In this document: one piece after another, positions 35,985 through 61,483 of the stretch
How positions within the stretch are numbered: position 1 is the stretch's first letter
Layout: the number at the start of each line of letters is the position of its first letter
NCBI GenBank assembly: GCA_964019135.1
Contig: OZ025249.1
Location: 4,092,001-4,156,000 of the forward strand
DNA: 64,000 nucleotides
Direction of reading: 5' to 3'
Source: Arenicola marina
Lineage: Eukaryota > Annelida > Polychaeta > Arenicolidae
Position numbers and translations under genes: made by a program
The notes under the pieces: generated by a model
The model's input: the letters and a program-made list of their open reading frames with translations, nothing else
Told to the model about the DNA's origin: nothing
Databases searched by the model: none

Positions 35985-36480
35985 TTATGACCGGCGTGTG
36001 GTGTTGTGACCTGCCAGTGATAATGTGACCTGCGTGTGGTGTTGTGACCTGCCAGTGATAACGTGGCGTGCGTGTGGTGTTGTGACCTGCCAGTGATAAT
36101 GTAACCTGCCAGTGATAATGTGGTGTGCGTGTGGTGTTGTGACCTGCCAGTGATAATGTGACCTGCGTGTGGTGTTGTGACCTTCCAGTGATAATGTGAC
36201 CTGCGTGTGGTGTCTTGACCTGCCAGTGATAATGTGACCTGCGTGTTGTGTTGTGACCTTCCAGTGATAATGTGACCTGCGTGTGGTGTCTTGACCTGCC
36301 AGTGATAATGTGACCTGCGTGTGGTGTCTTGACCTGCCAGTGATAATGTGACCTGCATGTGGTGTCTTGACCTGCCAGTGATAATGAGGCGTGCATGTGG
36401 TGTCTTGACCCTGTTGTGATGATATGACTGGCGTGTGGTGTAACTGTTGTGACCCAGTGATGATGTGCGTAACCTCTGAT
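35985..36480. repeat. 38-bp minisatellite beside SLC5 exon 12
   Basis: About 12 units of the same family as 7085-8060 (GTGATAATGTGACCTGC / GTGTGGTGT-TGTGACCTGCC). It lies in the intron immediately downstream of exon 12, beginning about 45-60 bp past its donor. Confidence 0.92.
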
Positions 36481-36504: not shown

Positions 36505-36605
36505 CTGTGAGGAGGGAGACGATGACTCCTGTTACTATGGTGACTGTCAGTGACAAGACGCTGTAGAGGAAGAACGACAGACGGAACAGCGGGAAAATGT
36601 CGCCT
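36505..36605 (-). CDS. SLC5A8-like: SLC5 exon 12: last membrane segment
   Basis: 101 bp between acceptor ATTTCAG and donor GTACGT. The first base completes a Val codon with exon 11; then GDIFPLFRLSFFLYS leads into a helix ending GVIVSLLTG, closely like SLC5A6 (GLIVSLLTG). It leaves one base over for the next exon. Near-identical copy at 8069-8169. Confidence 0.92.
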
Positions 36606-36745
36606 CTGAAATAGTCATCTCACCATAAATATGACCTCTGAAATAGTCTTCTCAACATAAATATGACCTCTGAAATAGTCATCTCACCATGAATATGACC
36701 TCTGAAATAGTCATTTCACCATAAATATGACCTCTGAAATGTCCA
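36603..36745. repeat. 32-bp tandem repeat of the exon 12 acceptor
   Basis: Four full 32-bp units plus the real junction, at 36,603, 36,635, 36,667, 36,699 and 36,731. On the minus strand each reads GTCATATTTATGGTGAGATG then ACTATTTCAGAG. Each unit therefore repeats the polypyrimidine-AG acceptor and the first two exon bases. Confidence 0.92.
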
Positions 36746-37324
36746 TGACACATAACACATGTGCCAACGGAGGATATTGACAAGTTCCCTAGATACCGCG
36801 CACACAGTATCTGTGCACATTCGTGCGGGCGATACCTTTATTTTTACTCAATGCTCATATCATTTAAATTCTATTCCAGAAATGACTTCTAGGATTTTAG
36901 GGGAAAAAAACCCAAACTGTTTCTACCAGCGTTATGGGAGGGTAAAACATTTCAGTCCCACCATGTTTTCGAGACAAGCACATACTGGGATGTTGGTTAA
37001 GGAGGCGGACATTTAACATAGGAGAGGCGGATGTTAAATGGTTTAAAAGAGGGTTGACCGGCTCCAAAAGTTAGCTTACTGCTTGTGGGGAGTCGGCCGT
37101 GGGAGGTGAGGGTGCGCGGGGTAGGGGGGTGGGGGCGTAGACATATCCATATCTAAGGAGAGGCATGATTTATATAGGGTGTGTGTCTGGAGGGGGGGGG
37201 GGGAGTAACGCCACCCTATCGTGAGTTATGTCACCAAGTGCGTCCGTGGCCCCACTGTGTGGTCAGCCCCTCCCCCCCTCTCCCACCACCCCTCCGCCCG
37301 CCCACCCTGCCCCGGGTTGCTTAC
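36746..37324. other. SLC5 intron 11
   Basis: Intron sequence between exons 12 and 11. Contains a G run near 37,191; no other feature seen. Confidence 0.6.
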
Positions 37325-37482
37325 ACATCCTCGTTGCGGGGCATGTCCGTGTAGGTCAGGTTGAAGCTGCTGCAGTTGGTCACCGTAGAGTTCAGGTGGT
37401 AGGGGTAGGGCTTGACCATGGCGTTCCCAACGCAACACGGAATCTGGATGCAGAATCCCAGCAGAGCCCCGGCCGCTGCACC
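37325..37482 (-). CDS. SLC5A8-like: SLC5 exon 11
   Basis: 158 bp, acceptor CTCCCAG, donor GTAAGC. Encodes a membrane helix (GAAAGALLGFCIQIPCC) and an extracellular loop with three possible N-glycosylation sites (NST, NCS, NLT), as in the large loop before the last helix of SLC5A8. Ends in phase 2. Confidence 0.92.
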
Positions 37483-38044
37483 CTGGGAGAGAGGGACACG
37501 ACAGACACTGTGGGGTCAGGGTACCTTACAGCAGGTCTACAATAATACATCTTTTTATCGGTATGTAAATGTTAGCATTGAACATTACCCCGTTGGTATT
37601 GACTGAGAACCGTTGTAACCGTTATGACACACCGATCTCTCATGAATTAATTAACATTATTATCTTAACTGATATATTAAATGCAAATATATGATGCCCC
37701 TGCTTTACAATCATAGTTACACGTGTAAGACTGCTAAATAGTACATAAGTACTTAGGCTAAAGAAGATAGTGCACACAACATAGGTCAACTTGTAGGTGA
37801 CAATTTCACCGATTATGCAAAGAGTACCAGTTCCTGGTGAGATTTTTTTTTTCACGGGGATAATTGGGGGCGTTATGACATCTGTCGCGAAATGGGCATG
37901 ATAGGCCGGAAGAATTATCCAGATAAATACGGACGCCGTTTATCACAAGGCTGCAGAATCATTTTTGCGTAGGGGTAAATCCTGTTCTAAGCGAAACGAT
38001 GGTTGGCTAGTTGGTATCATAAGAATGCTCACTATGGTACTGAC
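37483..38044. other. SLC5 intron 10
   Basis: 562-bp intron; no repeat or other feature recognised. Confidence 0.6.
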
Positions 38045-38131
38045 CTTCCAGTTGGTGAAGCTGAATATGGCTCCCATGATTAACATGCCAGTGACGGGCG
38101 CAGCTACTCCATAGACCAGTACACCGGCAAT
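38045..38131 (-). CDS. SLC5A8-like: SLC5 exon 10
   Basis: 87 bp, phase 0 at both ends, acceptor CACCCTTAG, donor GTCAGT. Encodes IAGVLVYGVAAPVTGM and the rest of a membrane helix, corresponding to the GPLMGLFALGILVPF region of SLC5A8. Its first 25 bases and its acceptor are the template of the 43-bp array that fills the intron upstream. Confidence 0.92.
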
Positions 38132-41100
38132 CTAAGGGTGAAACAGACATCCCATAGACGTGTACACCGGCAATCTACAGGTGAAACAGTCATCCCAAAG
38201 ACCTGTACACTGGCAATCTATGGGTGAAACAGACATCCCAAAGACCTGTACACTGGCAATCTATGGGTGAACCAGACATCCCAAAGACCTGTACACTGGT
38301 AATCTATGGGTGAAACAGACATCCCAAAGACCTGTACACTGGCAATCTATGGGTGAACCAGACATCCCAAAGACCTGTACACCGGCAATCTATGGGTGAA
38401 CCAGACATCCCAAAGACCTGTACACTGGCAATCTATGGGTGAACCAGACATCCCAAAGACCTGTACACCGGCAATCTACAGGTGAAACCGACATCCCATA
38501 GACCTGTACACTGGCAATCTATGGGTGAACCAGACATCCTAAAGACCTGTACACCGGCAATCTACAGGTGAAACAGACATCCCAAAGACCTGTACACTGG
38601 CAATCTATGGGTGAAACAGACATCCCAAAGACCTGTACACTGGCAATCTATGGGTGAACCAGACATCCCAAAGACCTGTACACCGGCAATCTACAGGTGA
38701 AACAGACATCCCAAAGACCTGTACACTGGCAATCTATGGGAGAAACAGACATCCCAAAGACCTGTACACTGGCAATCTATGGGTGAACCAGACATCCCAA
38801 AGACCTGTACACTGGCAATCTATGGGTGAAACAGACATCCCAAAGACCTGTTCACTGGCAATCTATGGGTGAAACAGACATCCCAAAGACCTGTACACTG
38901 GCAATCTATGGGTGAAACAGACATCCCAAAGACCTATACACCGGCAATCTATGGGTGAAACAGACATCCCAAAAACCTGTACACCGGCAATCTACAAGTG
39001 AAACCGACATCCCAAAGACCTGTACACTGGCAATCTATGGGTGAACCAGACATCCCAAAGACCTGTACACCGGCAATCTATGGGTGAAACAGACATCCCA
39101 AAGACCTGTACACTGGCAATCTATGAGTGAAACAGACATCCCAAAGACCTGTACACTGGCAATCTATGGGTGAACCAGACATCCCAAAGACCTGTACACC
39201 GGCAATCTATGGGTGAAACAGACATCCCAAAGACCTGTACACCGGCAATCTACAGGTGAAACCGACATCCCATAGACCTGGACACCGGCAATCTACAGGT
39301 AAAATATAATCCCATAGACCTGTACACCGGCAATCTACAGGTGAAGCAGACATCCCATAGACCTGTACACTGGCAATCTATGGGTGACACAGACATCCCG
39401 TAGACCTGTACACCGGCAATCTATGGGTTAAACAGACATCCAATAGACCTGTACACCGGCAATCTACACGTAAAATATACATCCCATAGACCTGTACACC
39501 GGCAATCTACAGGTGAAACAGACATCCCATAGGCCTGTACACTGGCAATCTATGGGTGAAACAGACATCCCAAAAACCTGTACACCGGCAATCTACAGGT
39601 AAAACCGACATCCCATAGACCTGGACACCGGCAATCTACAGGTAAAATATACATCCCATAGACCTGTACACCGGCAAGCTACAGGTGAAACAGACATCCC
39701 ATAGACCTGTACACCGGCAATCTATGGGTGAAACAGACATCCCATAGACCAGTACACCAGCAATCTATGGGTGAAACAGACATCTCAAAGACCTGTACAC
39801 CGGCTATCTAAGGGTGAAACAGACATCCCATAGACCTGTACACCGGCAATCTACAGAAGAAACAGACATCCAATAGAGCTGTACACCGGCAATCTACAGG
39901 TAAAATAGACATCCCATAGACCTGTACACCGGCAATCTATGGGTGAAACAGACATCCCATAGACCTGTACACCGGCAATCTATGGGTGAAACAGACATCC
40001 CATAGATCAGTACACCAGCAATCTATGGGTGAAACAGACATCCCAAAGACCTGTACACTGGCAATCTATGGGTCAACCAGACATTCCAAAAACCTGTACA
40101 CCGGCAATCTACAGGTGAAACCGACATCCCATAGACCTGGACACCGGCAATCTACAGGTAAAATATAATCCCATAGACCTGTACACCGGCAATCTACAGG
40201 TGAAGCAGACATCCCATAGACCTGTACACTGGCAATCTATGGGTGAACCAGACATCCCAAAGACCTGTACACCGGCAATCGATGGGTGAAACAGACATCC
40301 CAAAGACCTGTACACCGGCAATCTACAGGTGAAACCGACATCCCATAGACCTGGACACCGGCAATCTACAGGTAAAATATAATCCCATAGACCTGTACAC
40401 CGGCAATCTACAGGTGAAGCAGACATCCCATAGACCTGTACACTGGCAATCTATGGGTGAAACAGACATCCCGTAGACCTGTACACCGGCAATCTATGGG
40501 TTAAACAGACATCCAATAGACCTGTACACCGGCAATCTACACGTAAAATATACATCCCATAGACCTGTACACCGGCAATCTACAGGTGAAACAGACATCC
40601 CATAGGCCTGTACACTGGCAATCTATGGGTGAAACAGACATCCCAAAAACCTGTACACCGGCAATCTACAGGTAAAACCGACATCCCATAGACCTGGACA
40701 CCGGCAATCTACAGGTAAAATATACATCCCATAGACCTGTACACCGGCAAGCTACAGGTGAAACAGATATCCCATAGACCTGTACACCGGCAATCTATGG
40801 GTGAAACAGACATCCCATAGACCAGTACACCAGCAATCTATGGGTGAAACAGACATCTCAAAGACCTGTACACCGGCTATCTAAGGGTGAAACAGACATC
40901 CCATAGACCTGTACACCGGCAATCTACAGAAGAAACAGACATCCAATAGAGCTGTACACCGGCAATCTACAGGTAAAATATACATCCCATAGACCTGTAC
41001 ACCGGCAATCTACGGGTGAAACAGACATCCCATAGACGTGTACACCGGCAATCTATGGGTGAAACAGACATCCCATAGATCAGTACACCAGCAATCTATG

Positions 41101-44100
41101 GGTGAAACAGACATCCCAAAGACCTGTACACTGGCAATCTATGGGTCAACCAGACATTCCAAAACCTGTACACCGGCAATCTACAGGTGAAACCGACATC
41201 CCATAGACCTGGACACCGGCAATCTACAGGTAAAATATAATCCCATAGACCTGTACACCGGCAATCTACAGGTGAAGCAGACATCCCATAGACCTGTACA
41301 CTGGCAATCTATGGGTGAAACAGACATCCCGTAGACCTGTACACCGGCAATCTATGGGTTAAACAGACATCCAATAGACCTGGACACCGGCAATCTACAC
41401 GTAAAATATACATCCCATAGACCTGTACACCGGCAATCTACAGGTGAAACAGACATCCCATAGACCTGTACACTGGCAATCTATGGGTGAAACAGACATC
41501 CCGAAGACCTGTACACCGGCAATCTACAGGTGAAACAGACATCCCATAGACCTGTACACCGGCAATCTCAGGGTAAAACAGACATCCCAAAGACCTGTAC
41601 ACTGGCAATCTATGGGTGAACCAGACATCCCAAAGACCTGTACACTGGTAATCTATGGGTGAAACAGACATCCCAAAGACCTGTACACTGGCAATCTATG
41701 GGTGAACCAGACATCCCAAAGACCTGTACACCGGCAATCTATGGGTGAACCAGACATCCCAAAGACCTGTACACTGGCAAACTATGGGTGAACCAGACAT
41801 CCCAAAGACCTGTACACCGGCAATCTACAGGTGAAACCGACATCCCATAGACCTGTAAACTGGCAATCTATGGGTGAACCAGACATCCCAAAGACCTGTA
41901 CACCGGCAATCTACAGGTGAAACAGACATCCCAAAGACCTGTACACTGGCAATCTATGGGTGAAACAGACATCCCAAAGACCTGTACACTGGCAATCTAT
42001 GGGTGAACCAGACATCCCAAAGACCTGTACACTGGCAATCTATGGGTGAAACAGACATCCCAAAGACCTGTTCACTGGCAATCTATGGGTGAAACAGACA
42101 TCCCAAAGACCTATACACCGGCAATCTATGGGTGAAACAGACATCCCAAAGACCTGTACACCGGCAATCTACAGGTGAAACCGACATCCCAAAGACCTGT
42201 ACACTGGCAATCTATGGGTGAACCAGACATCCCAAAGACCTGTACACCGGCAATTTATGAGTGAAACAGACATCCCAAAGACCTGTACACTGGCAATCTA
42301 TGGGTGAAACAGACATCCCAAAGACCTGTACACTGGCAATCTATGGGTGAACCAGACATCCCAAAGACATGTACACCGGCAATCTGTGGGTGGAACAGAC
42401 ATCCCAAAGACCTGTACACTGGCAATCTACAGGTGAAACCGACATCCCATAGACCTGGACACCGGCAATCTACAGGTAAAATATAATCCCATAGACCTGT
42501 ACACCGGCAATCTACAGGTGAAGCAGACATCAGATAGACCTGTACACTGGCAATCTATGGGTGAAACAGACATCCCGTAGACCTGTACACCGGCAATCTA
42601 TGGGTTAAACAGACATCCAAGACCTGTACACCGGCAATCTACACGTAAAATATACATCCCATAGACCTGTACACCGGCAATCTACAGGTGAAACAGACAT
42701 CCCAAAGACCTGTACACCGGCAATCTATGGGTGAAACAGACATCCCAAAGACCTGTACACCGGCAATCTACAGGTGAAACCGACATCCCATAGACCTGGA
42801 CACCGGCAATCTACAGGTAAAATATAATCCCATAGACCTGTACACCGGCAATCTACAGGTGAAGCAGACATCCCATAGACCTGTACACTGGCAATCTATG
42901 GGTGAAACAGACATCCCGTAGACCTGTACACCGGCAATCTATGGGTTAAACAGACATCCAATAGACCTGTACACCGGCAATCTACACGTAACATATACAT
43001 CCCATAGACCTGTACACCGGCAATCTACAGGTGAAACAGACATCCCATAGGCCTTACACTGGCAATCTATGGGTGAAACAGACATCCCAAAAACCTGTAC
43101 ACCGGCAATCTACAGGTAAAACCGACATCCCATAGACCTGGACACCGGCAATCTACAGGTAAAATATACATCCCATAGACCTGTACACCGGCAAGCTACA
43201 GGTGAAACAGATATCCCATAGACCTGTACACCGGCAATCTATGGGTGAAACAGACATCCCATAGACCAGTACACCAGCAATCTATGGGTGAAACAGACAT
43301 CTCAAAGACCTGTACACCGGCTATCTAAGGGTGAAACAGACATCCCATAGACCTGTACACCGGCAATCTACAGAAGAAACAGACATCCAATAGAGCTGTA
43401 CACCGGCAATCTACAGGTAAAATAGACATCCCATAGACCTGTACACCGGCAATCTACGGGTGAAACAGACATCCCATAGACCTGTACACCGGCAATCTAT
43501 GGGTGAAACAGACATCCCATAGATCAGTACACCAGCAATCTATGGGTGAAACAGACATCCCAAAGACCTGTACACTGGCAATCTATGGGTCAACCAGACA
43601 TTCCAAAAACCTGTACACCGGCAATCTACAGGTGAAACCGACATCCCATAGACCTGGACATCGGCAATCCACAGGTAAAATATAATCCCATAGACCTGTA
43701 CACCGGCAATCTACAGGTGAAGCAGACATCCCATAGACCTGTACACTGGCAATCTATGGATGAAACAGACATCCCGTAGACCTGTACACCGGCAATCTAT
43801 GGGTTAAACAGACATCCAATAGACCTGGACACCGGCAATCTACACGTAAAATATACATCCCATAGACCTGTACACCGGCAATCTACATGTGAAACAGACA
43901 TCCCATAGACCTGTACACTGGCAATCTATGGGTGAAACAGACATCCCGAAGACCTGTACACCGGCAATCTACAGGTGAAACAGACATCCCACAGACCTGT
44001 ACACCGGCAATCACAGGGTAAAACAGACATCCCAAAGACCTGTACACTGGCAATCTATGGGTGAACCAAACATCCCAAAGACCTGTACACTGGCAATCTA

Positions 44101-46476
44101 TGAGTGAAACAGACATCCCAAAGACCTGTACACTGGCAATCTATGGGTGAACCAGACATCCCAAAGACCTGTACACCGGCAATCTATGGGTGAACCAGAC
44201 ATCCCAAAGACCTGTACACTGGCAATCTATGGGTGAACCAGACATCCCAAAGACCTGTACACCGGCAATCTACAGGTGAAACCGACATCCCATAGACCTG
44301 TACACTGGCAATCTATGGGTGAACCAGACATCCCAAAGACCTGTACACCGGCAATCTACAGGTGAAACAGACATCCCAAAGACCTGTACACTGGCAATCT
44401 ATGGGTGAAACAGACATCCCAAAGACCTGTACACTGGCAATCTATGGGTGAACCAGACATCCCAAAGACCTGTACACTGGCAATCTATGGGTGAAACAGA
44501 CATCCCAAAGACCTGTTCACTGGCAATCTATGGGTGAAACAGACATCCCAAAGACCTATACACCGGCAATCTATGGGTGAAACAGACATCCCAAAGACCT
44601 GTACACCGGCAATCTACAGGTGAAACCGACATCCCAAAGACCTGTACACTGGCAATCTATGGGTGAACCAGACATCCCATAGACCTGTACACCGGCAATC
44701 TATGGGTGAAACAGACATCCCAAAGACCTGTACACTGGCAATCTATGGGTGAAACAGACATCCCAAAGACCTGTACACTGGCAATCTATGGGTGAACCAG
44801 ACATCCCAAAGACATGTACACCGGCAATCTGTGGGTGGAACAGACATCCCAAAGACCTGTACACTGGCAATCTACAGGTGAAACCGACATCCCATAGACC
44901 TGGACACCGGCAATCTACAGGCAAAATATAATCCCATAGACCTGTACACCGGCAATCTACAGGTGAAGCAGACATCCCATAGACCTGTACACTGGCAATC
45001 TATGGGTGAAACAGACATCCCGTAGACCTGTACACCGGCAATCTATGGGTTAAACAGACATCCAATAGACCTGTACACCGGCAGTCTACACGTAAAATAT
45101 ACATCCCATAGACCTGTACACCGGCAATCTACAGGTGAAACAGACATCCCATAGGCCTGTACACCGGCAATCTATTGGTGAAACAGACATCCCAAAAACC
45201 TGTACACCGGCAATCTACAAGTAAAACAGACATCCCATAGACCTGGACACCGGCAATCTACAGGTAAAATATACATTCTATAGACCTGTACACCGGCAAG
45301 CTACAGGTGAAACAGACATCCCATAGACCTGTACACCGGCAATCTATGGGTGAAACAGACATCCCATAGACCAGTACACCAGCAATCTATGGGTGAAACA
45401 GACATCTCAAAGACCTGTACACCGGCTATCTAAGGGTGAAACAGACATCCCATAGACCTGTACACCGGCAATCTACAGAAGAAACAGACATCCAATAGAG
45501 CTGTACACCGGCAATCTACAGGTAAAATAGACATCCCATAGACCTGTACACCGGCAATCTATGGGTGAAACAGACATCCCATAGACCTGTACACCGGCAA
45601 TCTATGGGTGAAACAGACATCCCATAGATCAGTACACCAGCAATCTATGGGTGAAACAGACATCCCAAAGACCTGTACACTGGCAATCTATGGGTGACAC
45701 AGACATTCCAAAAACCTGTGCACCGGCAATCTACAGGTGACACCGACATCCCATAGACCTGGACACCGGCAATCTACAGGTAAAATATAATCCCATAGTA
45801 CTGTACACCGGCAATCTACAGGTGAAGCAGACATCCCATAGACCTGTACACTGGCAATCTATGGGTGAAACAGACATCCCGTAGACCTGTACACCGGCAA
45901 TCTATGGGTTAAACAGACATCCCATAGACCAGTACACCAGCAATCTATGGGTGAAACAGATATCTCAAAGACCTGCACACCGGCTATCTAAGGGTGAAAC
46001 AGACATCCCATAGACCTGTACACCGGCAATCTACAGGAGAAACCGACATCCAATAGAGCTGTACATCGGCAATCTACAGGTAAAATAGACATCCCATAGA
46101 CCTGTAGACCGGCAATCTATGGGTGAAACAGACATCCCATAGACCTGTACACCGGCAATCTATGGGTGAAACAGGCATCCCATAGACCAGTACACCAGCA
46201 ATCTATGGGTGAAACAGACATCCCAAAGACCTGTACACCGGCTATCTAAGGGTGAAACAGACATCCCATAGACCTGTACACCGGTAATCTGCAGGAGAAA
46301 CTGACATCCAATAAAGCTGTACACCGGCAATCTACAGGAGAAACAGACATCCCATAGACCTGTACACCGGCAATCTCAGGGTAAAACAGACATCCCATAG
46401 ACCTGTCCACCGGCAATCTATGGGTGAAACAGACATCCCAAAGACCTGTACACCGGCAATCTCAGGGTGAAACAGA
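38110..46476. repeat. 43-bp minisatellite of the exon 10 acceptor, block 1
   Basis: About 195 tandem units of 43 bp, continuous with the real exon edge. On the minus strand a unit reads ATGTCTGTTTCACCCATAG, then ATTGCCGGTGTACAGGTC, then TATGGG. That is intron end plus AG acceptor plus exon start. Variants (CCCATAG, CCTGTAG, CCTTAG, TCTGTAG) are arranged in higher-order blocks. For example, the marker CATCTCAAAGACCTG followed by CGGCTATCTAAGG recurs at 39,781, 40,854, 43,298 and 45,403, with the first spacing about 25 units. Open frames inside are repeat artefacts. Confidence 0.96.
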
Positions 46477-48606: not shown

Positions 48607-51117
48607 TTAAGACGAAAATCTACGATTTTCGTCTTATGTCGGTGTGTTCGGTTTGTCTGTGTGTGTGTCTGTCTGTCTGTCTGTCGGAGCATTATCTGTC
48701 GAATGACTAAAGATATCGTTCTCTTCTTTTACCAAAACATTCCGGCAGCCAATCGACAGGTCAAGTTCGTAGATGGGCAATATAACTCAAAGGTCAACGT
48801 CACGATGACCTCATACGTCCAAAACACATTTTCCGCTCTAGCTCTCTTAATATTGCAGCTAGAGAGCCGCAATTAGTGTCAAAATACTCAGCTCCTCAAA
48901 GTCTTTCTCGTTACTGACATCAGATTTGATGTAGGATGAAAAGTTTTCGCGCCACGGGCTCTTGAAAATTGACAACTTTGGATTTTTTTTTTTTTTTTAC
49001 AAAGTTTGAGATATCGACTTCTCCTTCTGCATAGATAATGCCACGGCCTACCGTCAGACCAAGTTTGTAGATGGGCAATCTAGGTCAAAGGTCAAGGTCA
49101 CAGGAATTTTTCACATTTCGCTTAACCATTGAAAGATAGGACCAAAAATCGGAAAAATCACTACTACTGTCTTAGTTTTCATCTAATGACGCTCACCATT
49201 ATTTCTGTTATTGGGCCCATAGGTACGTTATATATCGTCTCAAAATTGTAAAAATCGCCCGAATAGTTTTCCCGCTAAAAATTCCCAAAGTTTAAAATGG
49301 GATCCTACGGCAGCATTTTGGCGGGAAAGTGGTCTCAATTTCTCCGTGAAGGGCACAAGTGAGACAAACGTCACCTGGCGTGATACATGACATTAGTAAT
49401 TGGGCACGAATAACTATATTGGTCAAGGTCACGCTTCCAAGGTCAAAGTCGCAGCAAGGTCAAGGACACGAAACATGTGTTCCCGCGTAACTTCGTTAAT
49501 ATCGCGTCTAGAGATTCGTTGTTTGTTGGAGAGTATTCTGCGGAGAGAGGCGGACACGCATGACTGGCTCAAATGTTCCGGATACTGAACGATTTTCGAG
49601 TAATCGGCCAATCTATATTCAGCGTACGTGTCAAGTGGCGTTTTAAACTTTGCAAGGCCATAACTCGGTTAATATTTGAGATAGGGAGCCCAGATTTGGC
49701 ATGAATGGAGAGAGAAATGTGAGCTAGACTTATGAAAACCACCTCAGAAATGCTCTAGGACGCTTAGTTTGGCCGCTAGAGCGCTCACAAGAGGTGCACC
49801 CCCCTCCATGCCGACGCTCCCATTATGAGTCAACGGCGATATGGACCGGCACTCTTTCGGGATTGCGATGGCCGCCGTTCGCTTAATAGCGACGCTAGAG
49901 AGTCGGGATTAGTTGCAAACGACGGGCAAACGTCGACTTGGATATGGAAACCGCCTTCACATTTTGCCTATCACGCATAGTTTTCCCGCTAAAAATTCCC
50001 AAAGTTTAACATGGGACTCTACGGGAGCATTTTGGCGGGAAAATGACCTCCCCAATTTCTCCATGAAGGGGACATCTCAGACAAACAACACCTTGCGTGA
50101 AACATGACAGTAGTATTTGGGCGGAAAGTACTATATTGATTAAGGTTACGCTTCCAAGGTCAAGGTCACGGCAAGGTCATGGTCATGAAACATGTTTTCC
50201 CGCGTAACTCAGTTAATATTGGGTCTAGAGATCCGCGGTTTGTTTCGAAGTATTCTTCAGAGACAGGCGCGAAAGCTGTGTGCCTTCGGATTTAACCTCA
50301 CATTTATAGTTTTTGAGTTGGATGATCAATTGTAACCCAAGAAAAATTATACAAAATTGCGGTGACCACATGCATGCAGGTAGATTACCTACATGTGGTG
50401 GAATATGTACCAATATTACTAACATCATGTGTGCCAAATGCCATGGAAATCGAACCAGTAGTTTGAACGCAAAGAAATATTATCCCATTATAAAGACTCG
50501 ATTCCGCCACTTGAAGACGGATCGAGACGTTTCGGCCTATATAACCCAATATTGTCACTAGCCCTTTGCAATTCTATGTTCAAAAACTGACGCCCGCGGG
50601 CCGAATGTTTCTTTTATATCAACCGAAATGTGTTTCCAGCATAAAAACGAAAAAATATTAATAATAGGTACCCAGTTGGGTTTGAACACCCAACCTTCAT
50701 GCCCACTGTCGAAAGCCTTATCCACTACGCCAAAGTGCCGCGTTGTACGTATATGCTACTGTTTCAGAAGTCCCCAAACCCGCTCGATCAGTCATATTTC
50801 ATACGAAATCCTGCCCTCGGTCTTCCATAGGCTCGACCGAAGCACAACATCCGCCCGTCTCGATCTTTATATCTCGCACCACAACGAAACAGGTCCACAT
50901 TGGGTAATATTGGGTATATATCCGCGGTTTGTTTCAGAGTATTCTTTAGAGACTTTTTGGAGATTCATATATTCTCGCTATCTTCCAGCTATGTTATAAG
51001 CGGGATTATGAATGCGGCCCCTTTATCTGTGACCTTTCATAGTTATCGGCTCATGGTCAGTTGCACCTATCCCCCGATTTTCGTCTTCCCTCTCAAGCTA
51101 TGCTTGACAAATTCTAG
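48607..51117 (+). mobile_element. Non-autonomous Helitron/Helentron-like element
   Basis: 2.5-kb insertion that splits the LINE reading frame; removing it restores KATWKA-IRSVISRSN in frame with no target duplication. The right end is typical for a Helitron: a 6-bp hairpin (TCAAGC-TAT-GCTTGA) about 6 bases before a terminal CTAG, followed by host T. Near the left end is AAGACGAAAATC, and its inverse GATTTTCGTCTT occurs both beside it and just before the terminal hairpin, the subterminal inverted repeat layout described for Helentron-type elements. The exact left edge (48,607-48,609) is ambiguous by two T. The interior has a GTCT microsatellite (about 48,665), a direct repeat of about 290 bp (49,265-49,560 and 49,979-50,270, third partial copy near 50,915), and no helicase. 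Confidence 0.7.
50668..50745 (-). repeat. tRNA-like sequence (SINE head), not a functional tRNA
   Basis: On the minus strand there is an A-box-like TGGCGTAGTGGATAAGGC and a T-arm-like TTGGGTGTTCAAACCCAA. The acceptor stem does not pair, so it is a tRNA-derived relic carried inside the Helitron-like element. Confidence 0.55.
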
Positions 51118-51678
51118 TTGCTTTCCATGTTGCCTTGATGTCTCCCTTACATTTTTCGAAAGCATGGTAATAATACGATCTTTTGGCCAACCGAATGTTA
51201 TTTTTTAATATGGTATCATACGTTCTAAGATTGGTTTTCAGAGTATCGTATTGACAGGACGTTGGCGCTGTCATTTTAAGTCTCTTGTAAAGTTTATCTT
51301 TAAACGCTATGGACTTTATGATACCATTAGTGATCCAGTTTGCCTTTTTATGTTTCCTCTTATTAAATTTAACTGTTTTGTCCGGTAAAAAAGTAGCCCT
51401 GGCCTTTGCTAGTACATCGTCCATTATCTCATAATTGATATTAGGGTCGGCGCTAAGGTCACTGTTCAGTCTACCTAAAATATTTGCGTTTGCAATGTAC
51501 TGTTTAAATTGTAGCATTGACTGTGGATCATTGGTTTTTATATTAATATAAGTGGGCGTTTTATTTGAGCGTCGTATATCTATGTCTAAATATAAGAAAT
51601 AAGGGAGGTGGTCTGAAATGGCCTTCAATAAAATTCCCGCCGTTGTATTCAACGAACTGGGTGTTAATTTACATAACA

Positions 51679-52018
51679 AATTATCGATCAGTGTACCCCT
51701 ATTACGTGACAATCGGGTCGGTAGTGTGATTTTGGGAAGAAAACTGCAAGACATGATGCAATCAAAATAATCGCTAATGGCCGGTTTTTCATTAATCATT
51801 AGGAGGTCAATGTTGAAGTCACCTGCTAAAATACATTCCCTATTAGGAAAAAATTATCGATCAGTGTACCCCTATTACGTGACAATCGGGTCGGTAGTGT
51901 GATTTTGGGAAGAAAACTGCAAGACATGATGCAATCAAAATAATCGCTAATGGCCGGTATTTCATTAATCATTAGGAGGTCAATGTTGAAGTCACCTGCT
52001 AAAATACATTCCCTATTA
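51679..52018. repeat. Tandem duplication of ~170 bp inside the LINE
   Basis: The block from AAATTATCGATCAGTG to ACATTCCCTATTAGG occurs twice in a row, nearly identical (one visible difference: GGCCGGTTTTTC against GGCCGGTATTTC). It duplicates the end of the endonuclease domain, so two overlapping copies of FDCIMSCSFLPKITLPTRLS are encoded. Confidence 0.92.
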
Positions 52019-52900
52019 GGTTTGCTTCTCTCAAATGAAAAGAGAACCTCAGACAATTCTTCTGAAAAGGTTGCATAGTTTTCATTGATGTCGCATGGAG
52101 GTCGATATATATTTCCTAGAAGCATTTTCTTGTCAGTATTACGTCCATATACTTCAATGAATTGCCCTTCCCATATATTCGACTTAATCTGGTTTTCTAT
52201 AAAATGAAATGCATATGACTTATTGAGATATATAAGCAGACCTCCACGCGTGCTACAGGATTTACCCTGCGATATCAATACATAGTCATCGAGTTCGAAA
52301 ATGCCAGTATCAGCATCATCTGATAACCAGGTTTCTTGTAAACAGACTGCACATAACACAACATTGCGATCACGTAGAACCTCTAAAAACACTTTCAATT
52401 GCTCAATTTTCGAACGAATGAAGGCAATATTTAAACTAAGCATGGTGAACTCATGTCGCTTACTCCCAATGACCTTAATAAACCCATCCAAATCACAGTA
52501 AGGTGAGTGTTCAATAATAATTTCTTCCGAACAATCAATGTCAGATTTGCCATTACAATTAACTTTTAATGTATCAATAAGTGAATTAATATTTACACCC
52601 CCAAAATTTGTTAAGATGTCACCAACATTCTCGTTACCCACAATCGACATAGAAAATAACTGCAATAACATTGTGAATCTCCGCAAACAGGCAAATAAAC
52701 AAGTCAACAGAAACATATAAATGAACCTTTAAACAACAAACAGTTTTGTCATGGGTGTCCATTTCACTCAGCTTTTCACCAGAAACACACCCGGGTAGCG
52801 CAATTAACCTGTATTTGAAGAGTGACGGCTTCCTAATTAGTTACAACATTATATCTGCATACAAAATAACAAAACATTGTGACTGATATGAACACAGCCG

Positions 52901-53607
52901 GTTAAAGCAGCGGCGCAGAAACTGCAATTAACCTAATACTGTATAACTCACAGAACATCGTGGCCATTACAAGGCGCAATCATCAGCGGTAACACCTGGC
53001 ATATCACCCTTGTGGGAAAGGCCCCCGGACACTGAACATACATACCGTGCCACGCGGGCAGTTTACTGACTGGATCGAACTAGTCTTTCGCGGGGGGAGA
53101 GAAAGTATGGGACGTAGACAGAAGGCACGAATGTAAATCCACTTACGATCTTTTACTGTTTAACATCAGTCATTTGAGCTCGTTTTTTCTATGGCGAGAT
53201 ATACCGAGTAGATTTGCTTCACACCCCTATATTGAGCCATTTATTTGAAACAGAAGTGGGCCACGCTAATTTATGCCACTACGACACTACCATACAGCTC
53301 GAGGGGGCAAACCGTGAACCCTTTGGGGGAGGGCTTGTGTAAACACATGGTATGCATGCATATCAAGCTATTGGGTCCTATGGCCCGTTATAGAGGAAAC
53401 AAACAAGAACAATTAACGTTTGAGCTCGGTGTCATTAATGAGTGAGCTCTCCGTCTTCAGGCTTGGCTGATGACGGGTGGGAGCCGAAGGGGCGTGCGTC
53501 GTACAATCGACAACCAAGGCAAATATAAACAATAAACATTGACGCTGGCCTTTGTGTTTGTTTTACAACCAGAATGCCAGAAAGTTTCTAAACCTTTCAA
53601 AGGCCTT
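52901..53607. other. Unassigned sequence between LINE and repeat array
   Basis: Either LINE 5' untranslated sequence or original intron. No repeat units or coding exons recognised. Confidence 0.4.
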
Positions 53608-55222
53608 TCATAGACCTGTCCACCGGCAATCTATGGGTGAAACAGACATCTCAAAGACCTGTACACCGGCTATCTAAGGGTGAAACAGACATCCCAAAGA
53701 CCTGTACACCGGCAATCTAAGGGTAAAACAGACATCCCATAGACCTGTCCACCGGCAATCTATGGGTGAAACAGACATCTCAAAGACCTGTACACCGGCT
53801 ATCTAAGGGTGAAACAGACATCCCATAGACCTGTACACCGGCAATCTACAGGAGAAACCGACATCCAATAGAGCTGTACACCGGCAATCTACAGGTAAAA
53901 TAGACATCCCATAGACCTGTACACCGGCAATCTATGGGTGAAACAGACATCCCATAGACCTGTACACCGGCAATCTATGGGTGAAACAGACATCCCAAAG
54001 ACCTGTACACCGGCAATCTATGTGTGAAACAGACATCCCAAAGACCTGTACACCGGCAATCTGCAGGAGAAACTGACAACCAATAGAGCTGTACACCGGC
54101 AATCTACAGGAGAAACAGACATCACATAGACCTGTACACCGGCAATTTATGGGTGAAACAGACATCCTAAAGACCTGTACACCGGCAATCTATGGATGAA
54201 ACAGACATCCTAAAGACCTGTACACCGGCAATCTACAGGTGAAACAGACATCCCATAGACCTGTACACCGGCAATCTGCAGGAGAAACTGACATCCAATA
54301 GAGCTGTACACCGGCAATCTACAGGAGAAACAGACATCCCATAGACCTGTACACCGGCAATCTATGGGTGAAACAGACATCCCAAAGACCTGTAAACCGG
54401 CAATCTATGGATGAAACAGACATCCCAAAGACCTGTCCACCGGCAATCTACAGGTGAAACCGACATCCCATCGACCAGTACACCGGCAATCTAAGGGTAA
54501 AACAGACATCCCATAGACCTGTCCACCGGCAATCTATGGGTAAAACAGACATCTCATAGACCAGTACACCAGCAATCTATGGGTAAAACAGACATCCCAT
54601 AGACCTGTACAGTACACCGGCAATCTGCAGGAGAAACTGACATCCAATAGAGCTGTACACCGGCAATCTACAGGAGAAACAGACATCCCATAGACCTGTA
54701 CACCGGCAATCTATGGGTGAAACAGACATCCCAAAGACCTGTAAACCGGCAATCTATGGATGAAACAGACATCCCAAAGACCTGTCCACCGGCAATCTAC
54801 AGGTGAAACCGACATCCCATCGACCAGTACACCGGCAATCTAAGGGTAAAACAGACATCCCATAGACCTGTCCACCGGCAATCTATGGGTGAAACCGACA
54901 TCCCATCGACCAGTACACCAGCAATCTATGGGTGAAACAGACATCCCAAAGATCTATACACAGTCAAATCTACAGGTAAAACAGACATCCCATAGACCTG
55001 TACATCGGCAATCTAAGGGTGAAACGGACATCTCATAAACCTGTACACCGGCAATCTACAGGTGTAACAGACATCCCATAGACCAGTACACCAGCAATCT
55101 ATGGGTGAAATAGACATCCCATAGACCTGTACACAGTCAAATCTACAGGTAAAACAGACATCCCACAGACCTGTACACCGGCAATCTACAGTTGAAACAA
55201 ATATACGACAGACCTGTACACC
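53608..55222. repeat. 43-bp minisatellite of the exon 10 acceptor, block 2
   Basis: About 37 units of the same 43-bp repeat, the other side of the array split by the LINE. The units here are more diverged at the right edge, the original intron side. Confidence 0.95.
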
Positions 55223-55516
55223 CAAGTTTTTTCCCGAAATTATCTTATCCAGTTATTTTGGTGGGGGCTTCAAAATTAGTCTCTTGAAAGCTATGTCTTA
55301 AAGCATTTTCCTATTGTCCGCCATGTTAAAGCCAATTTGAGAAAATCGGCCAGAACTTTATCTTCAGTAAAGTAACATATGTGTTTTTTATTAAGTTTAC
55401 AGGTAAATCCATAAACAACATTTATTAAGAGAATAAATAAATAAATTCTGTCGACGATTTTAAACCCCACAGAGAAAAGCAGATCTAAATAACCAAGCGA
55501 GAAATTGTTTACGCAC

Positions 55517-55587
55517 CTGTAAAACGTTACCACTGATGTATTCACTGGCGACAGCAAACCCCAGCCCCAGCAACCCGTAGGACACCG
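55517..55587 (-). CDS. SLC5A8-like: SLC5 exon 9
   Basis: 71 bp, acceptor ATTTACAG, donor GTGCGT. Encodes VSYGLLGLGFAVASEY then ISGNVLQ, matching the SVVYGALCIGMAALAS...LLQ helix of SLC5A8. Phase 1 in, phase 0 out. Confidence 0.92.
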
Positions 55588-55740
55588 CTGTAAATACGAA
55601 GGTGTCACGGAATGACTTAGTCGTCGCAGCTGTTATTGCATGCATTGCATTCGTTTCAGGGTTAAAACTTCAGCCTAGCGATTGTCTCAGCTCATATATG
55701 TATATATTCACGTTGAATAACGATAAATCGCTTATTCGAA

Positions 55741-56085
55741 AATTACTCACCGGACAATCACTCACCGGACAATCACACCGGACCATCACTCACCGGACAA
55801 TCACTCACCGGATAATTACTCACCGAACAATCACTCACCGGATAATTACTCACCGTATAATTACGCACCGGACAATCACTCACCGGATAATTACTCACCG
55901 GATAATCACTCACCGGACAATCACTCACCGGATAATTACTCACCGGATAATCACTCACCGGACAATCACTCACCGGATAATTACTCACCGGATAATCACT
56001 CACCGGACAATCACTCACCGGATAATCACTCAGCAGACAATTACTCACCGGACAATCACTCACCTGCCAATCACACCAGACAATG
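55741..56085. repeat. 15-bp tandem repeat in SLC5 intron 8
   Basis: About 22 units of ACTCACCGGACAATC / ACTCACCGGATAATT. On the minus strand each unit contains CCGGTGAGT, a near-consensus donor site, lying just downstream of the real donor of exon 8. Confidence 0.93.
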
Positions 56086-56107
56086 GTTTGCCTCATCATT
56101 TGTTTGC

Positions 56108-56214
56108 CTGGTTCCGGTGAGCGTCACGCATAGTTTGTTTACCGAGTGGTTCCGGTGAGCGTCACGCATAGTTTGTTTACCGAGTGGTTCCGGTGAGCAT
56201 CACGCATAGTTACC
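56108..56214. repeat. 38-bp tandem repeat of the exon 8 donor
   Basis: About 2.8 units at 56,111, 56,149 and 56,187. On the minus strand each unit contains CTCGGTAAACAAACTATGCG, a copy of the real exon end and donor (CTCCTCG|GTAACTATGCG), followed by TGACGCTCACCGGAACCA. Confidence 0.9.
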
Positions 56215-56326
56215 GAGGAGCTTGGTGACCAAGGTTCGTCTGGACTCTGTCAGGTGCTGGAACCTGGCCTCCAGGAAGTGTTTCCACGTCACTGTGGCGT
56301 TGGCGCTCATGGAGGATGAGACCGTG
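56214..56326 (-). CDS. SLC5A8-like: SLC5 exon 8
   Basis: 113 bp, acceptor CCCTGCAG, donor GTAACT. With the two bases from exon 7 it encodes STVSSSMSANATVTW and LTESRRTLVTKLL, matching STVSSSINALAAVTVEDL and the LSERSLSWISQG loop of SLC5A8. Confidence 0.93.
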
Positions 56327-56632
56327 CTGCAGGGACCGTCCAGGGCAAGTCAAATGTAGGACAAATAGAAACCAACTCGCAATATAAACAGAAGCTAGTA
56401 ACCCTTTTTGGACAACAGGAGTAAACGGGCATTACGGTGGATTAATCCGCATAGTTTCTGAACTAAAGGGTTAATCTTGTGGAATGCTGCTCGCAACCGT
56501 GACGTGTTCATATTCGAATCATAACAGATAATTAAAATACTACTTTTTGAAACACTATATTCCAGACATTGAAACAACTTTATGGACTATAAATAGACGC
56601 GCCCACTCATCCATGGTGCGGCTAATCCCCAC
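56327..56632. other. SLC5 intron 7
   Basis: 306-bp intron. No repeat recognised. Confidence 0.6.
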
Positions 56633-56718
56633 CTGAGGGCGCCACTGAAGACGACCGACATTAACAAGCCTGGGAAGCAAGGGATGCGAAGTCCCTCGGT
56701 GATGTAATAAGGCAGCAG
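56633..56718 (-). CDS. SLC5A8-like: SLC5 exon 7
   Basis: 86 bp, acceptor CTCTATAG, donor GTGGGG. Encodes LLPYYITEGLRIPCFPGLL and a helix ending VVFSGAL, aligning with LMPYLVLDILQDYPGLPGLF...ACAYSGTL of SLC5A8. Phase 0 in, phase 2 out. Confidence 0.92.
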
Positions 56719-57022
56719 CTATAGAGACAAGGGAGGGAACTGATGACGGGTTATAGCCCTACACGATAGGCTAAAATAAAAACATACTGTTACTTCAATG
56801 TTGGGATTTTCTGCATCATATCAGACGTCACATACTGTGGAACAAAGAAAGTATAAAAACTAAGTTTTACTACCACACTAATATGAATATTTAGCCCTAC
56901 TTTTACCTACTTTGAAAACTTCAAATGTTTATTTACTATTTTACCTCAAGCCGAGTATCAAGCACATTTTCTCTGTATTTTCCCTAAAATGCAGAGCACT
57001 ATTTATTCCCTGGCCAAGGTAC
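56719..57022. other. SLC5 intron 6
   Basis: 304-bp intron. No repeat recognised. Confidence 0.6.
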
Positions 57023-57158
57023 CTGGTTGGCACTGGTGACTTGACCTGTCCGAAGCGGGTCACACCCGAGAATGTCGTAAAATGCAAACACGTGGTAGCC
57101 GATACCTATTGTCAGCACCTCCACCAGCATCCAGCCAAAGGCGGAGTACATCACAGAC
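57023..57158 (-). CDS. SLC5A8-like: SLC5 exon 6
   Basis: 136 bp, acceptor CCCCTAG, donor GTACCT. Encodes SVMYSAFGWMLVEVLTIG, then YHVFAFYDILGCDPLRTG and QVTSANQ. The CDP motif and following loop are characteristic of SLC5A6/8/12. The exon's 5' edge is the first unit of the 58-bp array. Confidence 0.93.
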
Positions 57159-58566
57159 CTAGGGGTGTAATGATGACGTCATAAGCACCCAGCCAATGGC
57201 GGAGTACAGTACAGACCTAGGGGTGTAATGATGACGTCATAAGCACCCAGCCAAAGGCGGAGTACAGTACAGACCTAGGGGTGTAATGATGACGTAATAG
57301 GCATCCAGCCAACGGCGGAGTACATCACAGACCTAGGGGTGTAATGATGACGTCATAAGCGTCTAGCCAAAGGCAGAGTACATCACAGACCTAGGGGTGT
57401 AATGATGACGTCATAAACATCCAACCAAAGACGGAGTGCATCACAGACCCAGGGGTGTAATGATGACGTCATAGGCATCCAGCCTAAAGCGGAGTACATC
57501 ACAGACCTAGGGGTGTAATGATGACGTCATAAGCGTCTAGCCAAAGGCAGAGTACAGTACAGACCTAGGGGTGTAATGATGACGTAATAGGCATCCAGCC
57601 AACGGCGGAGTACATCACAGACCTAGGGGTGTAATGATGACGTCATAAGCGTCTAGCCAAAGGCAGAGTACATCACAGACCTAGGGGTGTAATGATGACG
57701 TCATAAGCGTCTAGCCAAAGGCAGAGTACATCACAGACCTAGGGGTGTAATGATGACGTCATAAGCGTCTAGCCAAAGGCAGAGTACAGTACAGACCTAG
57801 GGGTGGAATGATGACGTAATAGGCATCCAGCCAACGGCGGAGTACATCACAGACCTAGGGGTGTAATGATGACGTCATAAGCACCCAGCCAAAGGCGGAG
57901 TACAGTACAGACCTAGGGGTGTAATGATGACGTAATAGGCATCCAGCCAACGGCGGAGTACATCACAGACCTAGGGGTGTAATGATGACGTCATAAGCGT
58001 CTAGCCAAAGGCAGAGTACATCACAGACCTAGGGGTGTAATGATGACGTCATAAGCGTCTAGCCAAAGGCAGAGTACATCACAGACCTAGGGGTGTAATG
58101 ATGACGTCATAAACATCCAACCAAAGACGGAGTGCATCACAGACCCAGGGGTGTAATGATGACGTCATAAGCGTCTAGCCAAAGGCGGAGTACAGTACAG
58201 ACCTAGGGGTGTAATGATGACGTCATAAACATCCAACCAAAGACGGAGTGCATCACAGACCCAGGGGTGTAATGATGACGTCATAAGCACCCAGCCAAAG
58301 GCGGAGTACATCACAGACCCAGGGGTGTAATGATGACGTAATAGGCATCCAGCCAACGGCGGAGTACATCACAGACCTAGGGGTGTAATGATGACGTCAT
58401 AAGCGTCTAGCCAAAGGCAGAGTACATCACAGACCTAGGGGTGTAATGATGACGTCATAAACATCCAACCAAAGACGGAGTGCATCACAGACCCAGGGGT
58501 GTAATGATGACGTCATAGGCATCCAGCCTAAAGCGGAGTACATCACAGACCTAGGGGTGTAATGAT
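57115..58566. repeat. 58-bp minisatellite of the exon 6 acceptor
   Basis: About 25 units of 58 bp continuous with exon 6. On the minus strand each contains the intron end TGACGTCATCATTACACCCC, then TAG, then exon start GTCTGTGATGTACTCCGCCT and TTGGCTGG. Variants (GCATCCAGCC, GCGTCTAGCC, ACATCCAACC, GCACCCAGCC on the plus strand) recur in blocks, suggesting multi-unit duplications. Each unit also holds TGACGTCA, a perfect CRE-like palindrome, or its variant TGACGTAA. Confidence 0.95.
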
Positions 58567-58860
58567 GACGTTATAAGAAGGCCGGGCAGATTCAGACGTG
58601 GCCCGTTCGTACCAACATATGATATATGTAAGTATAATGATGTTTTTCATATAGTTGTGGACAGTACAGAAGCTGTGTCGCTGAGCAGACGCAATAGTGT
58701 TAGCTCAACTGAAGAATATTGGCTAAAAAATCAGCATTATAATAAGGATTAAGTAACTTTACATCAATTATCCCCTACATATTCCTAAATGCATGCATGG
58801 CACTTATTAACCAAACGCCGTCATAACGCGTGCGACCCAGCGCCGTCATAACGCACTCAC

Positions 58861-58998
58861 AGCCTGGCCTGGTTGAGGGTGGGGGTGGCGCAGAAGCGCT
58901 GCAATGAGGTTTGCATGGTGCCCACGATGAAGCCCAGTACGATGTTGCCGCTCATGATAGACCACAGGTTGAGCCGCTGGAAGGGGTCCGGGTCCCAG
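58861..58998 (-). CDS. SLC5A8-like: SLC5 exon 5
   Basis: 138 bp, acceptor TGTACAG, donor GTGAGT. Encodes WDPDPFQRLNLWSIMSGN, then IVLGFIVGTMQTSLQRFC and ATPTLNQAR, aligning with NFNPNPLQRHTFWTIIIGG and NQSQVQRYISCKSRFQAK of SLC5A8. Confidence 0.94.
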
Positions 58999-59420
58999 CT
59001 GTACACAAGGACACAAAGATTATAGAACCATTAACCACCCATCGGAAGGGGGGAACCGGCTAGAAGGGGGTGAGCGGGCGACTGTTTCTCCAGTCTATAA
59101 CCTTACTTATGATGTATGGATTAAGTTTAGTATCGAGTTAAGGACTCACTTGAACCATATAGAGAGGCCAAGTAGCACCGGACCCGTGACTTCTCACCCA
59201 GTGCGCTGCTCCACTGAACGCTCTGGACTGTGCTTAATGCATAGGGAATCTGACATTTAGCTGCGCCCTCAACAATAAGCAAAGCATCATTTCGTCACGA
59301 GACTCAAATGTTGGCTGAAGAGGGCTTCTATGGTGATTTATCTCCCACTTATGAGTATGGCGAGGTTACTGTATGATTATGGCCTTCTAGCTAGAGGAGG
59401 CCACGACATGGGCTACTTAC
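58999..59420. other. SLC5 intron 4
   Basis: 422-bp intron, no feature recognised. Confidence 0.6.
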
Positions 59421-59491
59421 ACGATGAGATTGAACCTGCCCATATCTCGGGCCGAGCTCAGAATGGCGCGTGACCCCATGCGGACCTCGCC
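59421..59491 (-). CDS. SLC5A8-like: SLC5 exon 4
   Basis: 71 bp, acceptor ATTTCAG, donor GTAAGT. Encodes GEVRMGSRAILSSARDMG and RFNLIV, the loop before the NPNP motif; this loop is variable in the family (GGISTILNDAYDGGRLNFW in SLC5A8). Confidence 0.88.
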
Positions 59492-59905
59492 CTGAAATGA
59501 ACCATTCCTGTCACCCAAAGCAGTCCATGTGACATCATGAATTGTCAACAACAGAATTCAAGTGATATAGCAATATATGTGCGAGTTGCACAACAGTTAA
59601 TTCAAAATACCAACGTCATCTACGTAGATGGTCTTGTCTTAGATGGTCTTGTCAAGGAATGTTTCCATAAGTTATAGAATGCCCTCGTGAAGGAATGCTG
59701 TGCAAGAGAACCTTGTGACGCCTTGTGACGCAATGGGGTAGGTTTCTCTTCTTTTTCCTTTTTTCTCGTCAAGAAATATAGCGATTTTCGTGACGGAAAG
59801 CACCAAAAGGTTGGAGGTTCTTGTGAAGGAATGTCATACGAAAACGGATCATGTTCTGCAAACCAATCTGGAGAGGGAATGTCGCTGCGGCTGGACATGA
59901 CTTAC
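59492..59905. other. SLC5 intron 3
   Basis: 414-bp intron, no feature recognised. Confidence 0.6.
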
Positions 59906-59986
59906 GACAATAAGGATGACGATCAGCCCGCCCACCGTGATGACTCCCTGCACGGTGTCAGTCCACACCACAGTCTTCATCCCGCC
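59906..59986 (-). CDS. SLC5A8-like: SLC5 exon 3
   Basis: 81 bp, phase 0 at both ends, acceptor CTTCCAG, donor GTAAGT. Encodes GGMKTVVWTDTVQGVITVGG and a hydrophobic end, matching the conserved GGLKAVIWTDVFQ motif of sodium/solute symporters. Confidence 0.94.
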
Positions 59987-60751
59987 CTGGAAGTAACGCC
60001 CAACAGAGACACGTCAATAATAATGATGCTGATGAAGATGATGAGACCGTCCGCCGTGACCTATGTATGTCTCATACTGTTCCTATATTTGGTGACGTTA
60101 GGATAGGGGGGGGGTGGGGTCACCCCTTCTGAATGGCGAATCCCCAAGAATTAGGGAGAGTAATATCGAGTCTCCAAATGTGCGCGAAAAAAACCCATTA
60201 CAAGTGATATCGTGAATATCGAGGAATTCATAGACTGCAATAACGGACCGCCGTAAATAGGGAAAAGGTCTTCGCGTTGAACCAGCAATTGTGCAGATAA
60301 CGATCCCCAAAAATTGTCAACAGCTAATCGCGAATCGCAAAGAATTTCTGGACGCCAATCGTGGAGATCGGAAAAGGTATTCCCTCCCCTCAGGGTATAT
60401 ACTTGAACAAGTAGCTCAAGAAAGCAGTAATAGCGTGTCGAGCAGCAACCGTTGTTCACTCTGGCATGGATAAGCTAATATATGGGAGTGAATGAGGGCT
60501 AATAATTATACTTTCTCCATCATTGACACATTTGGTAATTTAAATTGAAATTCTTCACTTCATTTTCCATTTCCCGAGTCCATTAGGCCTGCCAGAAATT
60601 ATATGTACAAGGTATGATACTCCGCCCTTGATATAGACACAACTTTTATCCACGAACCGGTTGTTAATATACAAGGATAGGTCTGTAGATTTTCATGTCA
60701 TACAATGTTTGTAGCCACGGTTCTGTCTAGTGTTTGTAGTGATGGGCTTAC
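59987..60751. other. SLC5 intron 2
   Basis: 765-bp intron. A GATGAT-rich microsatellite stretch near 60,015-60,040 and a G run near 60,105; nothing else. Confidence 0.6.
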
Positions 60752-60819
60752 GATAGTCGTGTAGACAATGCCCACGGTACCGGCCGCCAACGCCGTCTTC
60801 CAGTACGCGATCCCAGTCA
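60752..60819 (-). CDS. SLC5A8-like: SLC5 exon 2
   Basis: 68 bp, acceptor GCTTTCAG, donor GTAAGC. Encodes VTGIAYWKTALAAGTVG and IVYTTI, aligning with [20 protein letters not shown] of SLC5A8. Confidence 0.93.
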
Positions 60820-60927
60820 CTGAAAGCAAAGTAAGGAAGTATACGGTATTCCAGTCACTGAAGCCAAAGTAAGGAATTATACGGTATCCCAGTCACTGAA
60901 GCCAAAGTACGGAATTATACGGTATAC
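60813..60927. repeat. 38-bp tandem repeat of the exon 2 acceptor
   Basis: Three units at 60,813, 60,851 and 60,889. On the minus strand each reads CTTACTTTG-CTTCAG followed by the exon start TGACTGGGAT, then TACCGTATAATTC. Two decoy acceptors lie directly upstream of the real one. Confidence 0.92.
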
Positions 60928-61483
60928 GGTCTAATATCCGTGAAATTGGGACATTGAAGAAAAAACTGCATTTCGTCTTCAATTTAATATTAAAATTCCT
61001 AAATCACGATTAATGGAAATCCTTCATCACGGCCGTCGGATAATACCCCATTCCCACTTCACGAAGAATAATTTTCCTTATTTTTGCTTATTCCCATGCA
61101 GTTCACGGTGAAAATGAAAAACCCAATCCCGAGGAACGCAAATACCCCTCCACCCACCCCCCCCGTCACCCCTCTACGTTTGAATACCCAAATTCCGACG
61201 CTGATCATCTGAATATCGACACCGATTTTTTTTTAAAACGACGCTGAAGTTAGCCAAAAAGCGACACGGAACGTCGTGAAAATTAACATTCGACACTGAG
61301 AATTTTGACAATTTCTAGACCCCTATTTTAGAATTTTGGTTTAGTTCAATTGCTTGACATACATGGGAGGGGCTCGATACCATTTTCGCGTCACAACTTA
61401 TCATGTGAAGTATGTCTATAAGCATTACGTCATATGACATAACTCCCATGTTTGCGCGCGGTATCTATGGTTACGTAACAACG
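60928..61483. other. SLC5 intron 1 (part)
   Basis: No gene recognised. The segment 61,453-61,485 (TGCGCGCGGTATCTATGG and on) is repeated exactly at 61,847-61,879. Confidence 0.5.

Follow-up and report, generated by a model that had tools for sequence, protein, structure and literature searches.

When the unit of a tandem repeat contains a splice site together with the edge of the adjoining exon, two questions arise: whether such arrays are born at exon edges or merely survive there, and how the correct splice site is still chosen beside its near-copies. We examined a gene of Arenicola marina that carries several such arrays, in a window of 64,000 nucleotides (the whole stretch of DNA analysed). 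The gene lies on the minus strand at 36505..63687. Twelve exons were placed within the window by reading frame and splice dinucleotides, and when spliced they gave an open frame of 387 aa. The product matched the Pfam SSF domain (PF00474, E 4.5e-18), and its residues 2-387 aligned colinearly with residues 141-543 of SMCT1 (PDB 7sl9, E 2.6e-50), which places it in the SLC5 (SSF) family of sodium-coupled transporters. SMCT1 was the best match, followed by the sodium/iodide cotransporter (5.6e-48) and the multivitamin transporter (1.1e-47); we refer to the gene as SLC5A8 (SMCT1)-like, a subfamily label taken from these E values and not from a tree. We found neither the coding part that would correspond to SMCT1 upstream of residue 141 nor the exon or exons past exon 12. 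Coding sequence is thus missing upstream, and exon numbers count from the first exon placeable in the window.

Arrays were called with Tandem Repeats Finder (TRF), and their units were delimited by wrap-around alignment in exon register at the acceptors and by eye at the donor. At five arrays, all on the minus strand, the splice site of the adjoining exon was found inside the repeat unit: at the acceptors of exons 2, 6, 10 and 12, and at the donor of exon 8. Each of these exons was supported by a colinear protein match. Exon 2 (60752..60819) adjoins an array at 60810..60925 with 3.1 copies of a 38-bp unit, 28 bp intronic and 10 bp exonic, and exon 6 (57023..57158) an array at 57126..58577 with 25 copies of a 58-bp unit, 25 bp intronic and 33 bp exonic. 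The array at the donor of exon 8 (56214..56326) lies at 56109..56211 and has 2.7 copies of a 38-bp unit that includes the junction CTCG/GTAA, with 4 exonic bp; the terminal, functional copy is 5 nt shorter than the unit, and the end of the array as called by TRF is 2 nt short of the exon. Exon 10 (38045..38131) adjoins a much longer array of 43-bp units, each with 20 intronic and 23 exonic bp, which TRF reported in two pieces of 194.9 and 37.4 copies. Finally, the acceptor of exon 12 (36505..36605) lies in an array at 36603..36740 with 4.3 copies of a 32-bp unit, 29 bp intronic and 3 bp exonic. The unit crosses the exon-intron boundary in every case, carrying a large exonic part at exons 6, 10 and 2 and merely 4 and 3 bp at exons 8 and 12. 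In the four acceptor arrays, the AG was kept by many but not all of the full units (227/232 at exon 10, 20/25 at exon 6, 3/3 at exon 2 and 4/4 at exon 12), so that about 250 acceptor-bearing full units lie upstream when the four terminal ones are excluded. None of the five unit lengths is divisible by three. The small arrays (2.7-4.3 copies) showed 92-98% matches, and these three look young.

These results reproduce the anatomy given in the original prediction, namely five arrays with units of 38, 58, 38, 43 and 32 bp, at four acceptors and one donor, with copy numbers from 3 to about 230 (wrap-around alignment gave 232 full 43-bp units); the exon numbers 2, 6, 8, 10 and 12 were the same in our exon placement. 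The prediction also held that the five units are unrelated. We compared the ten repeat units of the window in all 45 pairs, with 100 shuffles each, and found no convincing kinship; among the 10 pairs of junction units, the lowest shuffle counts were 2/100 (exons 8 and 10) and 5/100 (exons 10 and 12).

The prediction also drew a parallel with the amphioxus Adh locus, which proved to be correct. In lancelets, exon-intron boundaries that are tandemly duplicated at acceptors or donors are known as mirages, with units of 10 to about 160 bp, and they are described for Adh3, the globins BflGb6 and BflGb9, troponin C and PGBD5 (PMC3087553, PMC3902484). The units are 10-72 bp in Adh3 (PMC3087553), a range suggesting that this gene carries more than one mirage, and 60 and 108 bp in PGBD5, in a text that also mentions troponin C (PMC3902484). 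The AG or GT is kept in many, not all, units (PMC3087553, PMC3902484), and in the globins, haplotypes are reported to differ in copy number and RT-PCR products to be undisturbed (PMC3087553). The arrays described here are alike in having tandem units that span the boundary and in keeping the AG in many units but not all. They differ in that five occur in one gene and one of them has 232 units split by an insert, whereas the lancelet copy numbers available for comparison, Adh3 aside, are 2-7; they differ also in the presence of an exon duplicate that deviates by exactly three units (see below). With ordinary intronic minisatellites they share tandem units, block repeats and minority variants, but here the units contain exon sequence and a splice site. 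The kind of feature is thus already known. The present gene contributes its density of five cases, the large size of one array and the two copies of exon 12. A literature search, with thin coverage of subscription papers, returned no genome-wide survey of mirages and no report on this gene among the matches listed.

The array at exon 10 is the largest, with 232 full units over about 10 kb. Its exon-proximal piece (38109..46476, minus strand) holds 195 units, with AG in 191, and its distal piece (53609..55222, minus strand) holds 37 full units, with AG in 36. Between them lies an insert with LINE ORFs (46477..53608, minus strand; RVT_1 at 46789-48105 and endonuclease at 51829-52728). Of the 17,385 bp of intron 9, the two array pieces account for 8,345 and 1,614 bp and the insert between them for 7,132 bp, leaving 294 bp of other sequence. 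Because the unit phase is continuous across the insert to within 5 nt, the two pieces represent one array that was later split. Unit-level lag analysis showed that a 64-unit block occurs again 57 units away at 98.3% identity, suggesting that long blocks were recently duplicated, unless the duplication was made in assembly. The latter reading, extended to the arrays as a whole, would also draw on a run of N at 22159-22358, which makes the window a scaffold. However, four of the five arrays are merely 103-1452 bp long with units that differ, the 43-bp array contains 100 distinct sequences among its 233 full or partial units, and the LINE-ORF insert sits inside it; we consider an assembly artefact highly improbable.

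We think it probable that these arrays are minisatellites of the mirage type, that is, junction-crossing duplications that grew by unequal exchange and were tolerated as the terminal copy still splices correctly. A short tandem duplication that crosses a splice junction would start the process. For exon 12, it was probably seeded by an 11-bp imperfect direct repeat whose copies are 32 bp apart, one of them being the acceptor itself. Unequal exchange or slippage would then enlarge and reshuffle the array, including the duplication of long blocks. Growth would occur on the intron side, so that the copy touching the exon body stays intact and the correct splice is kept, and the remaining copies, including the roughly 250 full units that bear an acceptor, would be removed with the intron. 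Mistaken use of a copy would give a message that stops early in nearly all modelled cases, which would leave the array close to neutral. The seeding event and correct splicing in vivo are inferred; the frame of the spliced product is open through the terminal copies.

The consequences of splicing at upstream acceptors were modelled in 17 cases (two at exon 2, six at exon 6, one of these with GG in place of AG, six at exon 10 and three at exon 12). A premature stop resulted in 16 of them, and the remaining case was a frameshift with no stop in the known coding part. On this model, misuse of upstream copies should mostly be silenced by message decay. Selection on the units was also considered. 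At exon 6, variable columns made up 2/25 of the intron part and 14/33 of the exon part of the unit (P = 0.006), and at exon 10 the figures were 10/20 and 8/23 (P = 0.37). Because the contrast at exon 6 was not repeated at exon 10, these data show neither neutrality nor constraint.

Such a wealth of acceptor copies could instead be functional, regulating splicing as decoys or as a sink for splicing factors. In the 43-bp array, the AG came fifth in conservation among 42 dinucleotides across the 232 units, as this explanation would have it, but at exon 6 the AG ranked only 41st of 57 and was lost in 5 of 25 units (19 of the 24 upstream units keep it). RNA hairpins that mask the decoys were not supported either. 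Though some exon 10 units could pair across the AG in predicted RNA structure, the terminal AG had an unpaired value of 0.094 against a decoy mean of 0.295 and a mean of 0.371 in shuffled contexts, and 124 of 210 decoys equalled or exceeded the terminal AG in accessibility (the test excluded 21 of the 232 units, which had indels or no longer carried the AG); the same was true of 12 of 19 decoys at exon 6. We consider a function of the arrays in splicing very doubtful.

We next asked how often arrays would fall on junctions by chance. Arrays were collapsed to one unit and the insert was removed, giving a gene of 8,136 bp with 22 edges, on which units were placed at random with wholly exonic positions barred. 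Seven gene-region arrays with a TRF score of at least 50 were used, leaving out the arrays of the insert and a 22-bp array at 63889-64000. The probability that at least five of the seven lie on a junction was 1.5e-4. For units of at least 30 bp, all five arrays covered a junction, an outcome seen in about 2 of 200,000 draws (P about 1e-5), and in a strict form requiring at least 10 exonic bp, three of seven arrays did so, with P = 0.009. All three values are post hoc. Because the gene was chosen for showing the pattern, they overstate the surprise and are no evidence at the level of the genome; likewise, one hand-picked gene yields no unbiased rate of junction arrays. Of the original prediction, the five junctions and the unrelated units are supported, and the arrays are in excess at junctions within this one gene. 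The prediction had gone further and proposed a mechanism acting at exon edges, but action specific to edges is not established by a single gene selected by hand.

In a stronger form of our explanation, duplications would be seeded preferentially at splice junctions by some process acting on exon edges, such as slippage between acceptor-like motifs or the repair of breaks linked to transcription. The placement on junctions of all five arrays with units of at least 30 bp outside the insert, including the three small, young-looking ones, speaks for it, as does a near-repeat of the acceptor motif at unit spacing in a second copy of exon 12. Against it, the case is built on one hand-picked gene, the strict form was reached by merely three of the seven arrays, and a search for further seeds was negative. 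In that search, an ungapped 16-mer scan of all 24 exon edges, the arrays at exons 2, 6, 10 and 12 were recovered at 14-16/16, and no further seed stood clearly above intron background; the best scores outside known arrays were 12/16 at the exon 12 donor and 11/16 at the exon 1 acceptor and exon 3 donor, compared with 8/420 at 12 or more and 34/420 at 11 or more in the null. Because a gap of 5 nt lowered the score of the exon 8 array to only 10/16, the scan would also overlook seeds that are gapped or decayed. We regard targeting of junctions as possible but doubtful.

Survival bias also predicts an excess at junctions, since an array would persist where selection maintains the splice site to which it is anchored. 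Duplications could occur anywhere, with exon-touching arrays kept by selection on the terminal unit while deep-intron arrays decay or vanish. The 43-bp array is older than the LINE-ORF insertion, in agreement with such persistence, and two variants of its terminal unit survive as minorities: the T at an exonic difference in 16/232 units, five of them among the 37 farthest from the exon, and CTTAG in 13/232 units, six of them among the 37 farthest. However, small and young-looking arrays sit at junctions too, and spread from an anchor was not seen. Likeness to the terminal unit was 0.883-0.901 in all 12 bins along the 43-bp array, with no gradient with distance from the exon, and on this ground we rejected spread from the terminal copy. 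We regard anchoring as likewise possible but doubtful.

The second copy of exon 12 bears on the seeding step. It lies at 8069..8169 on the minus strand, is 98% identical to exon 12 over 101 bp, and has an open frame with AG and GT at its ends. Isolated some 28 kb downstream of exon 12 in the gene, it may serve as an alternative exon or be no more than a stray duplicate. From a shared 5' motif to the exon there are 144 nt at the gene's exon 12 and 48 nt at the second copy, a difference of 96 nt, or 3 x 32, which is anchored on a motif that is itself short. The short copy keeps a near-repeat (9/11) of the acceptor 11-mer at an offset of 32 nt upstream, and a match of 9 or more to that 11-mer was reached at none of 5,924 positions tested across eight intron stretches outside the arrays. 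By alignment, the acceptor unit of the copy diverges from the array more than its exon does from exon 12. The short copy may show the array as it was at its founding or after contraction; any direction of change is inferred, and the three-unit difference lies between duplicates that are not alleles. A tblastn search of the window with the 387-aa product (E up to 1) found no second copies of other exons, save fragments inside the exon 6 array.

Both exon 12 copies are followed by homologous 38-bp arrays, one past the exon 12 donor (35988..36441, minus strand, about 12 copies) and one beside the second copy (7091-8005, 24 copies). Since each copy has this array downstream, the array probably predates the exon duplication. 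It is at most a candidate for a sixth mirage: the donor of exon 12 lies outside the array, and the best 16-mer match was 12/16, as given above. A match between 23939-24810 and 30904-35633 had the appearance of a segmental duplication, and the exon 12 duplicate lies outside it. From self-comparison and ORFs, we read this match instead as the LTR pair of a BEL/Pao element (23939-35633, minus strand, with a Peptidase_A17 match), of which one apparent LTR was later split by an insert carrying terminal repeats of 460 bp (31368-31827 and 34743-35204). Another BEL/Pao element, also with a Peptidase_A17 match, lies at 212-6606 on the plus strand.

Several other features of the window were recorded. 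Intron 8 contains, a short way past the donor array of exon 8, a 15-bp array (55741..56074, minus strand, 22.4 copies) whose consensus on the gene strand includes the donor-like GGTGAGT, and no exonic sequence was seen in it. A 37-bp array at 19526-21332 (19781-21332 by TRF; about 42 copies) has, by eye, donor-like motifs on both strands. The 22-bp array at 63889-64000 runs off the end of the window upstream of exon 1 and may lie at another junction. In a non-exhaustive survey of gene content between 1 and 36 kb, six ORFs were compared with Pfam; four were retrotransposon ORFs, and one, at 15487-15939 on the minus strand, matched an FkbM methyltransferase domain (PF05050, E 8.4e-10). Scans for tRNAs and for Rfam families at gathering scores gave no matches.

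Taken together, these data allow a bolder proposal, which we offer as a speculation with the odds against it. Junctions may be preferred birthplaces of minisatellites in this genome: an acceptor would pair with a nearby like motif and seed slippage, exon edges would be minisatellite nurseries, adding kilobases to introns, and the two copies of exon 12 would show one junction before and after such an event. One proposed mode of intron gain is the tandem duplication of a genomic AGGT segment (the Rogers model, cited in PMC3087553), and a potato RdRp case has been presented (PMC4974935). The arrays described here share with these the tandem duplication of sequence involving splice signals, but they enlarge existing introns, and no new intron is shown. 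At exon 10, the terminal acceptor must be chosen beside up to 226 upstream near-copies bearing an AG, which makes this gene a case for the question of how splice sites are selected. The seeding step can be put to the test by comparison within the exon 12 pair. If seeding at junctions is real, introns could grow by it in a simple way, and new introns might arise as well, as a model for the lancelet globins has already proposed (PMC3087553).
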